Origin: Providencia vermicola
GTDB taxonomy: Bacteria; Pseudomonadota; Gammaproteobacteria; Enterobacterales; Enterobacteriaceae
Assembly: GCF_010748935.1 (NCBI RefSeq)
Contig: NZ_CP048796.1
Span: forward strand, 3,289,001 to 3,353,000
DNA: 64,000 bases
Direction: 5' to 3'
Shown: positions 54,093 through 61,006 of the stretch, piece after piece
Position numbering within the stretch: the stretch's first letter is position 1
Layout of the letters: each line of letters starts with the position of its first letter
Notes under the pieces: model-generated
Database searches by the model: none
Seen by the model: the letters and a program-made list of their open reading frames with translations, nothing else
What the model was told of the DNA's origin: nothing
Program-made: the position numbers and the translations under genes

Positions 54093-56120
54093 TTATTTTA
54101 GTACGTTGTAAATAACGGTTTCGCCTGCCGTTACATTACCACTAGCTAAAATTTCAACACCGGCAAAATCATCAATATTACTGATAATTACTGGGCTAAT
54201 CATGGATTTTGCATTCGCTTCTAAGAAGGCGATATCCAGCTTCAGAATCGGTGTTCCTGCTTGAACTTCACTACCTTCTTCCACTAAACGAGCACAGCCT
54301 TCACCTTTTAGAGCAACGGTATCGATGCCCATGTGAACAATTAACTCAACGCCATTATCTGTTTCAATACAGAATGCATGGTTCGTTTCGAAAATTTTGA
54401 CAACGGTGCCCGCTACTGGTGCTAACACTTCATCACTAGTCGGTTTGATCGCAATACCATCCCCGACGATACGGCTAGAGAATGCTTCATCAGGCACATC
54501 ATCAAGAGAATAAACTTCACCACTCACTGGCGCAACCAGTGACAGAATAGTTTCACCTTTCGCCTTTGTTGGCTCAGTTACTTTTGTCGTTTGTGCCGCT
54601 GCGGCTGGCGCCGAACCTGCAATGGCCCCTTTCGCCATCACTTCTTTCATGGCAGATGCAACCAACTCAGCACGGGTACCAACAATAACTTGAACGCTTT
54701 GTTTGTTCAGACGAATAACCCCTGACGCACCAAGACGTTTTGCCATCGCATCATTAACAACACTAGAATCTTTCACACTTAAACGAAGACGAGTGATACA
54801 TGCATCAATACCTGTAATGTTGTCACTTCCCCCCACTGCCGCAACATATTGGCGCGCTTCTTTTTGAATGTCGCTTTCTGAGCTATCGGCTGGGCTTAGA
54901 TTCTCATCATAGCCATCGATAGTTTCATCACCAGCACTCTCTTCACGGCCCGGCGTCATCAGGTTGAACTTACGGATCATGAAGCGGAAGATAACATAAT
55001 AGATGCAGAAGAAGACAAGCCCTTGAACAATCAGCATCCACCATTGTAATGCAAGAGGGTTACGTGATTGCAGCAGCATATCGACTAAGCCCGCACTGAA
55101 GCCAAATCCTGATAACCACTGCATTGATGCAGAAATAAAGACCGAAATACCGGTTAAGAATGCATGGATAACATACAATACTGGTGCCACAAACATGAAT
55201 GAGAATTCAAGTGGCTCAGTGATACCCGTAAAGAATGCGGCAAAAGCACCGGCCAGCATGATACCAGCGACTTTCGCTTTATTTTCAGGACGTGCACAAT
55301 GATAGATAGCTAATGCCGCCCCTGGTAAACCGAACATCATGATCGGGAAGAAACCAGCCTGATAACGCCCCGTAATACCTGGAATTGCCAGACCCTCTTC
55401 AATTGACTTAGCACCGCCAAGGAAGTTAGGAATATCGTTAATTCCTGCAACATCAAACCAGAACACTGAGTTCAAGGCATGGTGTAGACCGACTGGAATC
55501 AGTAAACGGTTAAAGAAGGCATAAACACCAGCACCCACTGAACCTAAATCTTTGATACTCTCACCAAATGAGACTAGGCCATTATAAACTACCGGCCAAA
55601 CATACATCAGCACAAAAGCAAGGATGATCATTAGGAACGATGTCAAAATCGGGACAAGACGGCGTCCACTAAAGAATGACAATGCTTTTGGTAACTCTAC
55701 CCCGCTATAACGGTTATATAACTCAGCAGAGAGCACACCAACAAGAATACCGACAAATTGGTTGTTAATCTTATTGAAAGCCGCTGGCACATTTTCAAGC
55801 GGAACATTCATAATCATGGAGTAAGACGCCGGTGAACATAATGTTGTTACCACTAAGAAACCGACAAACCCCGTCAGTGCAGCTGCACCATCTTTATCTT
55901 TTGACATACCATAAGCGATACCGATAGCAAACAGCACAGACATATTATCAATAATAGCTGCACCTGATTTTATCAGTAACGCTGCGATTGCACTATTGGC
56001 ACCCCACCCATCTGGGTCAATCCAATAGCCAATACCCATCAGGATCGCGGCGGCAGGTAATACTGCCACAGGCACCATCAATGCCCTACCAATCCGCTGT
56101 AAGTAGCTAAGAATATTCAC
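54093..56120 (-). CDS. nagE: N-acetylglucosamine-specific PTS transporter EIICBA
   Basis: The 675-residue protein imports and phosphorylates N-acetylglucosamine. EIIC occupies ~1-390 (RIGRALMVPVAVLPAAAI, FFPIMMFGLPGAALA, GITEPLEFSFMF), EIIB ~415-490 with the phospho-cysteine in GIDACITRLRLSV, and EIIA ~525-675 with the histidine in LIVHMGIDTVALKG. I start at GTG 56120 (NILSYLQRIGRAL), where GGGGGAG sits just upstream and the E. coli protein also begins; the frame runs on to 56153. Divergent from nagBAC across a control region with two NagC-like operators. Confidence 0.96.
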   Translation of the reverse strand: MNILSYLQRIGRALMVPVAVLPAAAILMGIGYWIDPDGWGANSAIAALLIKSGAAIIDNMSVLFAIGIAYGMSKDKDGAAALTGFVGFLVVTTLCSPASYSMIMNVPLENVPAAFNKINNQFVGILVGVLSAELYNRYSGVELPKALSFFSGRRLVPILTSFLMIILAFVLMYVWPVVYNGLVSFGESIKDLGSVGAGVYAFFNRLLIPVGLHHALNSVFWFDVAGINDIPNFLGGAKSIEEGLAIPGITGRYQAGFFPIMMFGLPGAALAIYHCARPENKAKVAGIMLAGAFAAFFTGITEPLEFSFMFVAPVLYVIHAFLTGISVFISASMQWLSGFGFSAGLVDMLLQSRNPLALQWWMLIVQGLVFFCIYYVIFRFMIRKFNLMTPGREESAGDETIDGYDENLSPADSSESDIQKEARQYVAAVGGSDNITGIDACITRLRLSVKDSSVVNDAMAKRLGASGVIRLNKQSVQVIVGTRAELVASAMKEVMAKGAIAGSAPAAAAQTTKVTEPTKAKGETILSLVAPVSGEVYSLDDVPDEAFSSRIVGDGIAIKPTSDEVLAPVAGTVVKIFETNHAFCIETDNGVELIVHMGIDTVALKGEGCARLVEEGSEVQAGTPILKLDIAFLEANAKSMISPVIISNIDDFAGVEILASGNVTAGETVIYNVLK

Positions 56121-56229
56121 AAACTCCCCCTTTATAGCCCAGTATTGCCCCATTTACGGGATCTTATTGTTCATACACCTTGATAATAGTTTAGGTGATT
56201 GAGCGTAGCAATTTCATAGTCTAGTTGAA

Positions 56230-56250
56230 TTCTTTCGCGATACAAAATAA
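56230..56250. promoter_or_regulatory. NagC-like operator, nagE side
   Basis: TTCTTTC, seven bases (GCGATAC), AAAATAA: the right half is perfect and the left half has five of seven bases of the TTATTTT/AAAATAA dyad. It is centred 94 bp from the second operator, a whole number of DNA turns (about nine). Confidence 0.6.
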
Positions 56251-56323
56251 ATAGGTGTGATTTGTGATAAATGTCAATGATAAATTTCATTATCCGCCTA
56301 AATTAGTGGCTATTATTGAAAAC

Positions 56324-56344
56324 TTATTTTATGATTAAAAATAA
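56324..56344. promoter_or_regulatory. NagC-like operator, central
   Basis: TTATTTT, seven bases (ATGATTA), AAAATAA: a perfect 7-7-7 dyad matching the NagC/Mlc-type consensus. NagC represses nagE and nagBAC until GlcNAc-6-phosphate binds it. Confidence 0.75.
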
Positions 56345-56575
56345 CTTATCCACTGGATTTAGCTTTATAGCTAATAGAGAATCTGTACTCCCTGAAACAT
56401 CCTATAGTTAATTAATAAAACTCAGGGACATAGCAACTGGAGAGTAGCGAAAGTGCATATCGGCAACGGAAAACAATCACGGAATTGCAACCTATGCCAT
56501 GTCGATTAAGCTACGCCAGATAAAAAATATTCAAGATTTCATAGAATTAACAGACTGTTACTAGAGGTAAGTATC

Positions 56576-57379
56576 ATGAGGCTTCTGCCACTAAAAACGG
56601 CTCACGCCGTTGGGATTTGGTCTGCACAATATATCGTAGACAAAATCAATGCATTTAACCCAACTGCCGAGCGTCCTTTTGTGCTAGGTTTGCCAACCGG
56701 TGGAACCCCGCTTGCAACCTACAAAGCGCTTATTGCTCTATATCAAGCTGGCAAAGTGAGCTTTAAGCATGTTGTCACCTTCAATATGGATGAATATGTC
56801 GGTATCCCAGAAAATCATCCACAAAGTTATCATACCTTTATGTATGAAAACTTTTTCAATCACATTGATATTCAAAAAGAAAACATCAATTTACTCAATG
56901 GTAATGCACCTGATGTTGATGCGGAATGTCAACGTTATGAAGACAAGATCAAATCCTACGGCAAAATTAACCTCTTTATGGGTGGTGTTGGTAACGATGG
57001 GCACATCGCATTTAACGAACCCGGTTCATCATTAAGCTCTCGTACGCGCATCAAGACGTTAACACCAGAGACTCGTATCGCTAACTCACGCTTCTTTGAT
57101 AACGATGTGAACCAAGTTCCTAAGTATGCATTAACCGTTGGCGTCGCAACGTTAATGGATGCCGAAGAATTGATGGTATTAGCGACTGGTGCGAATAAAG
57201 CAAACGCTGTACAAGCCGCGGTTGAAGGTTCAGTCAACCATTTATGGACCGTCAGTTGCGTACAGATGCACCAAAAAGCACTGATCGTCTGTGATGAGCC
57301 AGCGACACTTGAGCTAAAAGTAAAAACGCTAAAATATTTCAGTCAATTAGAATCAGACATTATCGAAGCATTTAATTAA
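56576..57379 (+). CDS. nagB: Glucosamine-6-phosphate deaminase
   Basis: The 267-residue enzyme converts glucosamine 6-phosphate to fructose 6-phosphate and ammonia. Motifs include [15 protein letters not shown] (phosphate loop), FNMDEYVG with catalytic Asp72, and [17 protein letters not shown]. Length is the family's (266-267), and the allosteric GlcNAc-6-P lobe is conserved by position. AGAGGTAAG precedes the ATG. First gene of nagBAC. Confidence 0.98.
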
Positions 57380-57458: not shown

Positions 57459-58622
57459 ATGTATGCACTAACTCATTGTATTATATATACCGGTCATGAA
57501 AGACTAGATAATCACGCCGTCATCATTGATGGTGCTCTTATTAAAGATATCTGCCCATTAAACCAACTCCCAGCAGGTATCGAGCAACATGATTTACAAG
57601 GTGCGATTCTTTCTCCCGGTTTTATTGATCTACAAGTCAATGGCTGCGGTGGTGTCCAATTCAATGACAACAAAGAAAATGTGACACTGAAGCATCTGGA
57701 GATAATGCAAAAAGCCAATGAACGTACCGGATGCACAAGCTACCTACCAACGTTAATTACTTGTTCTGATGACCTCATGAAACATGCCATTGAGGTGATG
57801 ACTGAATATCTAAAAACTCATCATCATCAAGCTCTTGGATTACATCTAGAAGGCCCTTACATCAACGTGATTAAAAAAGGTACTCACAATCCTGAGTTTA
57901 TTCGTAAACCTTCAGCAGAAATGATAGCGCATTTAGTGGCGCATGCTGATGTGATTACCAAAGTCACTTTAGCGCCTGAAATAGTGGATGAGTCCTATAT
58001 CCGACAACTCACTGACGCTGGTATTGTGGTTTCAGCGGGCCATTCAAACTCAACCTATGAAGAAGCTCGTCTTGGTTTTAAAGCAGGTATTGGTTTCTCG
58101 ACCCATTTATTTAATGCAATGCCATATATCTCAGGGAGAGGCCCAGGCTTAGTTGGGGCAATTTATGATACTCCTGAAGTGTATGCTGGCATTATTGCAG
58201 ATGGTCTTCATGTTCAATGGGCAAATATTCGTAACAGTAAGCGCTTGAAAGGTGATAAATTAGTTTTAGTTACGGACGCTACAGCGCCTGCTGGTATTGA
58301 TCCACAAACTGGTGAAATGGATCATTTTATCTTCGCAGGCAAAACCATATACTACCGTGATGGATTGTGTGTTGATGAGAACGGAACCCTCAGCGGATCA
58401 TCACTAACAATGATTGAAGCAGTTAAAAATACGGTAGAACATGTCGGTATCGCATTAGATGAAACATTAAGGATGGCAACACTTTATCCCGCAAGAGCCA
58501 TTGGTGTCGAATCTAGCTTAGGCTCGATTGCACCGGGTAAGGTTGCAAACTTAACTGCGTTTAACCACGACTTCCAAATCCTATCAACTTATGTCAATGG
58601 AGAGGAAGTCTACAAAAAATGA
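57459..58622 (+). CDS. nagA: N-acetylglucosamine-6-phosphate deacetylase
   Basis: The 387-residue amidohydrolase removes acetate from GlcNAc-6-P, making the substrate of NagB. Motifs are [23 protein letters not shown] with the metal-binding glutamate, [12 protein letters not shown] and THLFNAMPY with metal histidines, and [10 protein letters not shown] with the catalytic aspartate. It follows nagB by 79 bp. Confidence 0.97.
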
Positions 58623-58633
58623 GTATATAGCTG

Positions 58634-59857
58634 ATGAACCATAGTCACTCGCTAAAGCAAATTGGTAATATTGATCTGGTAAAACAACTCAACGGTGCCG
58701 TGGTATATAGCCTAATTGACCAACAGGGTCCTATATCTCGCATCCAAATCGCAGAACAGAGCCAACTTGCGCCTGCAAGTGTCACCAAAATCACTCGTCA
58801 GCTACTCGAACGCGGCTTAATTAAAGAAGTCGACCAACAGGCCTCAACCGGAGGCCGACGTGCCATATCTATCGTATCTGAGTATAAAAACTTTCATACG
58901 ATAGGTGTGCGCTTGGGTCGTTATGATGCTACCGTCGCACTGTATGATTTAAGCGGCAAACTGCTCAATGATGCCCATTACCCTATCTCAGCACCATCCC
59001 AACAAGCCTTAGAGCAAAAACTGACTGAAGCGATTGAAGACTTTATTGCTCTCAATCAGCGACGCATTAAAGAGCTTATTGCAATATCCGTGATCTTACC
59101 GGGCCTTGTGAACCCCCATAACGGTATCGTTCACTATATGCCGCATATCAAAGTAGATAATTGGCATCTCATTGATAATTTACAAGCGCATTTTAAAATT
59201 ACCTGCTATGTGGGTCATGATATTCGCAGTCTCGCGTTAGCTGAAAGCTACTTTGGCGCCACCAAGGATTGTGAAGACTCACTACTGGTGAGAATACATC
59301 GGGGTACAGGTGCTGGGTTGGTTATCAACAATGAAATTCTGCTAAATCATCGGGGGAATCTCGGTGAAATTGGGCATATTCAAGTGGACCCTTTAGGTGA
59401 GCTGTGTCATTGCGGCAACTTTGGCTGTCTTGAAACAATCGCTTCCAATCAAGCTATTGAAAATCGGGTAAAACAACGCTTAGAACAAGGCTTTGTCAGC
59501 TCACTCTCACTGGAGCAATGCACCATTCAACAAATTTGCCAAGCCGCAAATAAAAATGATCCACTCGCAACGGAAGTCATTCAGCATGTGGGCCGCCAAA
59601 TCGGTAAAGCTATCGCCATTTCAATAAACTTATTTAACCCTGAAAAAGTAGTGATTGCGGGTGATATCACCGAAGCTGAGCAGGTATTGCTACCTGCGAT
59701 TCAAAGCTGTATTGATACACAAGCTTTGAAGGGATTTCGCGAAAATTTACCCGTTGTGACTTCGCAATTGGTTCATAACTCGGCAATTGGCGCATTCGCC
59801 CTGACTAAACGTGCCATGCTCAATGGTGAATTACTCCAAAAACTCCTCGATAACTAG
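58634..59857 (+). CDS. nagC: NagC, ROK-family repressor of the nag regulon
   Basis: The 407-residue protein has an N-terminal winged helix almost identical to E. coli NagC (GPISRIQIAEQSQLAPASVT) and a ROK sugar-binding domain with zinc motif CHCGNFGCLE and GHDIRSLALAE. It binds GlcNAc-6-P and represses nag genes. It follows nagA by 11 bp; the ribosome site is weak, so it may depend on coupling. No nagD follows, unlike E. coli. Confidence 0.97.
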   Translation: MNHSHSLKQIGNIDLVKQLNGAVVYSLIDQQGPISRIQIAEQSQLAPASVTKITRQLLERGLIKEVDQQASTGGRRAISIVSEYKNFHTIGVRLGRYDATVALYDLSGKLLNDAHYPISAPSQQALEQKLTEAIEDFIALNQRRIKELIAISVILPGLVNPHNGIVHYMPHIKVDNWHLIDNLQAHFKITCYVGHDIRSLALAESYFGATKDCEDSLLVRIHRGTGAGLVINNEILLNHRGNLGEIGHIQVDPLGELCHCGNFGCLETIASNQAIENRVKQRLEQGFVSSLSLEQCTIQQICQAANKNDPLATEVIQHVGRQIGKAIAISINLFNPEKVVIAGDITEAEQVLLPAIQSCIDTQALKGFRENLPVVTSQLVHNSAIGAFALTKRAMLNGELLQKLLDN

Positions 59858-60285: not shown

Positions 60286-60362
60286 GGCTATGTAGCTCAG
60301 CTGGTTAGAGCACAACACTCATAATGTTGGGGTCACAGGTTCGAATCCCGTCATAGCCACCA
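60286..60362 (+). tRNA. tRNA-Met(CAT), elongator, copy 1
   Basis: The 77-nt gene includes CCA. GGCTATG pairs with CATAGCC, the anticodon loop CTCATAA gives CAT, and the T-loop is GTTCGAATC. The non-C1-A72-mismatch acceptor marks an elongator, like metT/metU. Confidence 0.98.
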
Positions 60363-60367
60363 TGTTT

Positions 60368-60452
60368 GCGGGAGTGGCGAAATTGGTAGACGCACCAGAT
60401 TTAGGTTCTGGCGCCGCAAGGTGTGCGAGTTCAAGTCTCGCCTCCCGCACCA
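60368..60452 (+). tRNA. tRNA-Leu(TAG), copy 1
   Basis: The 85-nt gene has a long variable arm (class II), acceptor GCGGGAG/CTCCCGC, anticodon loop TTTAGGT giving TAG, and encoded CCA. It corresponds to leuW of E. coli. Confidence 0.98.
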
Positions 60453-60481
60453 TTTTCCTTCTCGGTAATAGAATTTAAGAT

Positions 60482-60556
60482 TGGGGTATCGCCAAGCGGT
60501 AAGGCACCAGGTTTTGATCCTGGCATTCCCAGGTTCGAATCCTGGTACCCCAGCCA
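60482..60556 (+). tRNA. tRNA-Gln(TTG), copy 1
   Basis: The 75-nt gene has acceptor TGGGGTA/TACCCCA, anticodon loop TTTTGAT giving TTG, and encoded CCA. Confidence 0.98.
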
Positions 60557-60589
60557 TCTTAAATCAACAAATTTGAAGACATCCTCGGA

Positions 60590-60664
60590 TGGGGTATCGC
60601 CAAGCGGTAAGGCACCAGGTTTTGATCCTGGCATTCCCAGGTTCGAATCCTGGTACCCCAGCCA
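60590..60664 (+). tRNA. tRNA-Gln(TTG), copy 2
   Basis: This 75-nt gene is identical to copy 1. No CTG-anticodon glutamine tRNA occurs in this cluster, unlike E. coli, which has both types. Confidence 0.98.
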
Positions 60665-60735
60665 TCTCTCCTCTCCAAGGAATGTCTTAAAAATCCCATA
60701 CAGTAACTTTATAAAGATAGATTAACTGTATAGAT

Positions 60736-60812
60736 GGCTATGTAGCTCAGCTGGTTAGAGCACAACACTCATAATGTTGGGGTCACAGGTTCGAATCCCG
60801 TCATAGCCACCA
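60736..60812 (+). tRNA. tRNA-Met(CAT), elongator, copy 2
   Basis: This 77-nt gene is identical to copy 1 and starts exactly 450 bp after it, opening the duplicated Met-Leu-Gln block. Confidence 0.98.
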
Positions 60813-60818
60813 TGTTTT

Positions 60819-60903
60819 GCGGGAGTGGCGAAATTGGTAGACGCACCAGATTTAGGTTCTGGCGCCGCAAGGTGTGCGAGTTCAAGTCTCGCCTCCCGCA
60901 CCA
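60819..60903 (+). tRNA. tRNA-Leu(TAG), copy 2
   Basis: This 85-nt gene is identical to copy 1. The Met-Leu spacer differs by one extra T, which shows the two blocks have started to diverge outside the tRNAs. Confidence 0.98.
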
Positions 60904-60931
60904 TTCCCTTCTAGGGAATAAAATTAAGTAT

Positions 60932-61006
60932 TGGGGTATCGCCAAGCGGTAAGGCACCAGGTTTTGATCCTGGCATTCCCAGGTTCGAATCCTGGTACCC
61001 CAGCCA
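60932..61006 (+). tRNA. tRNA-Gln(TTG), copy 3
   Basis: This 75-nt gene is identical to copies 1 and 2 and ends the cluster. A terminator follows 34 bp later. Confidence 0.98.

Follow-up and report, generated by a model that had tools for sequence, protein, structure and literature searches.

The closest described system to the locus studied here is the divergent nagE/nagB pair of Escherichia coli K-12. In PMC5401889, looping of NagC between two sites is stated as needed in E. coli, and according to PMC2946308 altered phasing between the NagC operators derepresses both operons; GlcNAc-6-P is given as the inducer in PMC2946308 and PMC10634360. The chb, glmU and fimB systems of E. coli resemble nag in having two sites, with cooperative binding via looping stated as needed in PMC5401889 as well, but they involve other genes. 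The nan/siaPT region of Haemophilus influenzae also consists of divergent amino-sugar operons with a repressor (SiaR) and CRP between them, and phase matters there too. However, SiaR acts with CRP, and a half-turn insertion uncouples the two without derepression (PMC2946308).

The usual demonstration of loop phasing is base insertion in a single strain. A natural series across an order shows which distances occur, and separates the part of the interval held by CRP geometry from the part that belongs to the repressor pair. Our literature search found no published survey of the spacing of these nagE-nagB NagC operators, and the 94-bp interval is conserved to a degree for which no description was found in the literature searched. 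The window, that is, the whole 64-kb stretch of Providencia vermicola DNA that was analysed, has the same arrangement as E. coli K-12: divergent nagE and nagB, two NagC operators 94 bp (nine turns) apart, a CRP-type site 30.5 and 63.5 bp from them, and nagC in the nagB gene cluster. The E. coli parallel drawn in the sequence-only reading is borne out by MG1655, whose operators are also 94 bp apart (centres 3216 and 3310 of L002). The two loci differ in the letters of the operators and in the distances to the genes, the nagB operator centre being separated from the nagB start by 242 bp in the window versus 104 bp in MG1655, with a nagE start distance of 120 versus 135 bp.

The operator pair and its spacing in the family

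The gene nagE, encoding the GlcNAc PTS permease, lies on the minus strand at 54093..56120 (NCBIfam TIGR01998 above cut-off). Its start is probably the GTG at 56120 rather than the ATG at 56153 of the mechanical open reading frame, because homology to MG1655 NagE begins there (match placed at 54942-56120). On the plus strand are nagB (glucosamine-6-phosphate deaminase, 56576..57379; TIGR00502 above cut-off, 73% to MG1655 NagB), then nagA (GlcNAc-6-P deacetylase, 57459..58622; NF008371 above cut-off) and, in the same operon, nagC (58634..59857), encoding a ROK-family repressor that matches NF047937 (TransRegNagC) at 666 bits for a cut-off of 650. All 24 Providencia genomes surveyed have nagB, and the NagB of the window shares 94% identity with the P. 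burhodogranariea protein. NagC matches a fragment of E. coli NagC without the C-terminus at 70%, with residues 32-57 and 59-81 identical. By this alignment an orthologue with a nearly identical DNA recognition region is present, and we presume that it is the ligand of both operators.

The two NagC-type operators, both unstranded, sit between nagE (-) and nagB (+) and were identified by their match to a matrix built from the ten E. coli NagC sites of Table 1 in PMC3098098. The nagE-side operator (56229..56251, ATTCTTTCGCGATACAAAATAAA) is centred at 56240 and scores 14.2 bits, and the nagB-side operator (56323..56345, CTTATTTTATGATTAAAAATAAC) is centred at 56334 and scores 16.6 bits, giving a centre-to-centre interval of 94 bp. 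They are the top two matches in the entire 64-kb window, and the claim of two NagC-like dyads centred 94 bp apart between nagE and nagB is real; the limits given for the pair, 56230-56344, were off by one base at the ends. Removing E. coli's own nagB and nagE sites from the matrix leaves the operators first and fourth in the window (14.4 and 12.3 bits). When the 455-bp intergenic region was dinucleotide-shuffled 2000 times, no shuffle contained two sites matching the score of the weaker operator, and five contained one site equalling the better one.

The nagB-side operator, whose E. coli counterpart is the nagB site in Table 1 of PMC3098098, has C at -11 and +11. In the nagE-side operator, T at -6/-5 and A at +5/+6 are invariant in the 144 regions that were aligned ungapped at 94 bp. 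The unstranded 71-bp spacer between the two (56252..56322) keeps its length but, outside the CRP site and certain columns, accepts substitutions freely. The 96 genus representatives spaced at 94 bp have a median pairwise identity of 0.38 in spacer columns +42..+65, as compared with 0.75 for the CRP site and 0.87 for either operator.

The spacing survey took the two best non-overlapping sites of each nagE-nagB intergenic region, with no prior on spacing. It drew on 138 genomes from family and genus searches, one or a few per genus rather than every genome with nagB, and used 49 of the 80 named loci. From 189 upstream regions we removed 12 without a divergent nagE by tblastn (3 in the family, 9 outside) and 6 identical duplicates, leaving 171 distinct regions. 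The blind scan placed 144 of them at 94 bp, 22 at 93, and one each at 92, 95, 99, 128 and 375. The counts at 94 and 93 were unchanged when the matrix was used without nag sites, and in shuffled regions exactly 94 bp was obtained in 0.35% of 855. Visual inspection after the blind scan led us to re-register three regions, namely L080 (in which a third site had outscored), L208 (a two-base shift) and L040 (an operator decayed but still at 94 bp), which brought the 171 regions to 146 at 94 bp, 23 at 93, one at 92 and one at 375.

Measured in this way across many genera, the spacing that had been claimed as conserved is 92-94 bp in all 135 distinct regions (88 genus codes) of the window's own family, including the three re-registered by eye: 115 are at 94 bp, 19 at 93 and one at 92. 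Providencia has 94 bp in 24/24 regions (L080 as re-registered), and the same value occurs in Proteus, Xenorhabdus, Photorhabdus, Yersinia, Serratia, Salmonella and Edwardsiella, and also in Photobacterium, Grimontia, Aeromonas and Psychromonas. Among the 135 regions of the own family none departs from 92-94 bp by whole turns, which indicates that the absolute length is kept, and not phase alone. In L040, from a 2-Mb genome (G301), the two operators, at 8.5 and 4.0 bits, look decayed and are still 94 bp apart; such decay would fit a reduced genome in which NagC control is being lost.

The distances flanking the interval served as an internal control. The 171 regions contain 46 distinct distances from the nagE start to its operator and 63 from the other operator to nagB. 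Parsimony on a single quick NagE tree of 171 rows and at most 180 residues counted 14 changes of the interval, 111 of the nagE start-to-operator distance and 119 of the operator-to-nagB distance. The 308 within-genus pairs, 276 of them from Providencia, include 1 with a differing interval, 140 that differ on the nagE side and 270 that differ on the nagB side; for the 32 pairs outside Providencia the numbers are 1, 18 and 21. These data show the interval to be under strong constraint, the spacing by itself not establishing loop phase as the cause, so that the sequence-only interpretation is partly supported.

The CRP-type site and spacing in other lineages

The consensus for CRP binding is TGTGA-N6-TCACA. 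The window has an unstranded CRP-type site, TGTGA-TAAATG-TCAAT (TGTGATAAATGTCAAT), at 56263..56278 (centre 56270.5), which agrees with this consensus in 8 of 10 positions. Its distance to the nagE-side operator is 30.5 bp, and to the nagB-side operator 63.5 bp. A match of at least 8/10 is found at the same offset in 145 of the 146 regions spaced at 94 bp (among them L119, with an equal match elsewhere too), the exception being L219 (6/10), and at the expected place in 164 of all 171 regions. Of these 164, 156 have the CRP match 30.5 bp and 8 have it 29.5 bp from the nagE operator; its distance to the nagB operator is 63.5 bp in 153 and 62.5 bp in 11.

Four lineages keep the interval with no CRP match at the usual place: L161, L197 and L208 at 93 bp, and L216 at 92 bp, a small sample of four genus codes with one genome each and similar spacers, in which L208 was re-registered by eye. 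Two others keep it with a degraded site, L219 at 94 bp (6/10 left) and L222 at 93 bp (7/10 left). Genus searches around G297 and G395 for further CRP-less species gave only those two genomes. The four regions with no central CRP site have in common a TTGAATC...TATTCT-like stretch nearer nagB, which is perhaps a CRP-independent promoter.

Family f21 was taken as Vibrionaceae, and its set consists of the best 30 NagE matches to that of the window out of 99 genomes with a match. Within these best 30, the nagB-adjacent loci have 94 or 93 bp in 17 of 17, and where nagA stands opposite nagE instead of nagB, the 94-bp pair is present in 10 of 13 loci. Other f21 loci (L321, L322, L323) have one good site or none. 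The nagB-adjacent L318 (G239) has no 94-bp pair; its sites are at 59, 102 and 219, that is, 117 and 160 bp from the nagB operator.

Of the outer families of the order, f25 and f11 have 94 bp in 7/7 and 2/2 loci, and f27 has 93 or 94 bp in 8/8. In f10, where nagE was found in 10 of 12 genomes, g65 has 93 bp with a CRP match present, and g25 and g60 have no CRP match at the usual place. Seven nagB-adjacent loci of g25 and g60 (L331-L336, L340) are spaced at 114 or 115 bp. L337 (G009) and L338 (G124) have three NagC-type operators, at 118/139/233 and 118/139/232 respectively, with the outer one 21 bp (two turns) from the middle one, that is, a pair at 94 or 93 bp plus an extra site. In five of these seven f10 loci (L331, L332, L333, L335 and L340) a low-scoring match (1.8 to 4.0 bits), at a distance of 93 or 94 bp to the nagB operator, seems to be a surviving relic of the middle site; none was found in L334 and L336. 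It looks like the operator moved outward by two turns in f10.

In f2 (L341-L351) the operators are 126 bp apart in 11/11 genomes, and the CRP match is 63.5 bp from the nagB operator in all 11; apparently only the nagE operator has shifted, by 32 bp (three turns). In f12, a 93/94 pair whose sites reach at least 9 bits is missing from 20 of 24 nagB-adjacent loci, with spacings of 123, 154, 174 and 186-200 bp, some of them with weak sites, and with one site or none in some loci; in 14 of the 20, CRP is 62.5-64.5 bp from the nagB operator. None of the four Motilimonas-type loci (L112, L313-L315) has a 93/94 pair, the two best sites being 375 bp apart in L112 and 314, 383 and 445 bp in the other three. 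The nagE upstream regions of six f9 genomes gave no good operator pair.

Proposed looping and its alternatives

We consider it very likely that the window carries the Providencia copy of the E. coli-type NagC repression loop, with its interval under selection for both the loop and CRP. NagC would bind at 56240 and 56334, which face the same side of the helix at a distance of nine helical turns, and would contact itself to form a loop. This loop would enclose the divergent promoters and the CRP site, silencing nagE and nagBAC until GlcNAc-6-P frees NagC, and after release CRP at 56270.5 would activate. Purifying selection on the interval would have two joint reasons, the distance and phase needed by the loop and the distance from CRP to the promoter at the nagB operator. 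The sites, the interval and how well it is conserved, the CRP-type site and the NagC gene are directly observed, and we infer NagC binding, looping, CRP activation and the response to the inducer in Providencia. Looping is the best explanation, being supported but unproven by spacing, and we regard it as likely because of the phasing result reported for E. coli.

It must be taken into account, however, that 94 bp could be a by-product of promoter architecture: each operator would sit on its own promoter, with a shared CRP site at a fixed, phased distance from both, and no loop would be needed. Both halves of the interval are indeed tight separately (30.5/29.5 and 63.5/62.5 bp in the 164 regions). 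Moreover, the distance from CRP to the nagB operator, which is about two thirds of the 94 bp, is held at 62.5-64.5 bp in 25 loci of f2 and f12 without a nagE operator at -94. Since this distance is fixed where the nagE operator has moved or was not found, promoter and CRP geometry confounds the evidence for a loop, and looping as the sole constraint was rejected. Something besides the loop keeps that distance, activation of the nagB promoter being the simplest candidate, and the share left to the loop is where the nagE operator sits. By-product spacing alone is nevertheless unlikely in our view, though it is the strongest of the competing accounts. The CRP-less L161, L197, L208 and L216 are still at 92-93 bp, the CRP-less g25 and g60 of f10 are at 93 or 94 bp plus an extra site or at 114/115 bp, and in E. 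coli a change of phase between the NagC operators derepresses both operons (PMC2946308). The CRP-less lineages at 92-94 bp, the nagA loci of Vibrionaceae and the f10 loci with an extra operator at 21 bp or a spacing of 114-115 bp are the evidence that supports the loop specifically.

That the two operators act independently, one per promoter, at a distance kept by shared ancestry and not by selection, is very improbable. The arrangement is widespread in the order and galP is a single-site NagC target (PMC5401889), both of which would fit independent operators, but in the same regions the flanks changed 111 and 119 times and the interval 14 times, and the spacer has diverged to a median identity of 0.38. 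The identity of the repressor has also to be considered. Mlc and NagC are ROK repressors with related sites, and this relatedness could mean that the paralogue Mlc, or Mlc together with NagC, binds here rather than NagC alone. We find this improbable, as the E. coli nagE site, a listed NagC site, likewise has no G/C at the position in question, and nagC lies in the same operon.

Returning to the NagC loop, the sequence-only reading had taken conserved phase as an argument that looping is under selection. The sites, the E. coli parallel and the constraint on the interval stand; spacing alone does not establish phase as the cause, given the conserved absolute length within the family, the CRP confounder, the drift in outer families and the V-test. 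For E. coli, the half-turn check proposed in that reading has a reported outcome, the derepression of both operons on altered phasing (PMC2946308). The V-test used 11 non-94 spacings of f10, f2 and f12, counting each distinct spacing once and 114/115 as one; the Motilimonas-type spacings, those of L318 and the second gap (316 bp) of L358 were left out. The 11 spacings did not cluster significantly toward the phase of 94 (p from 0.07 at 10.3 bp per turn to 0.22 at 10.6). With the three spacings up to 126 bp alone p was 0.04-0.07, which we do not count as proof. A tentative reading, somewhat less probable than its contrary, is that the order records loop evolution by whole turns: in f10 an ancestral 94-bp loop would have been lengthened via a second nagE-side operator 21 bp outward, giving a three-operator stage that two genomes would still show, after which the old one decayed to leave 114-115 bp, and in f2 the operator would have moved out by 32 bp with CRP and the nagB operator unmoved. 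If this is true, loop phase is under selection as a character, and genomes make it legible. The CRP-less, three-operator, 115-bp and 126-bp lineages allow direct tests of helical phase.

The nagB leader and the region downstream of nagC

The nagB leader of the window occupies 56346-56575, the nagB start being 242 bp from the operator centre. In Providencia this leader is full of indels within the genus, and the distance from operator to nagB ranges from 139 to 272 bp across 24 regions. A structured RNA in the longer Providencia leader was considered and rejected on account of these many indels, of an Rfam search of 55900-56700 with no match up to E = 1, and of a search for a terminator-like site in 56080-56620 that found none. 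The leader of L080, from another Providencia genome (G535), has an extra NagC-type site of 15.4 bits, located 128 bp beyond the nagB operator and absent from the leader of the window. Downstream of nagC, the 100-aa open reading frame at 60423-60725 is probably no gene; it overlaps an array of seven tRNAs (Met, Leu, Gln, Gln, Met, Leu, Gln) at 60286-61006.
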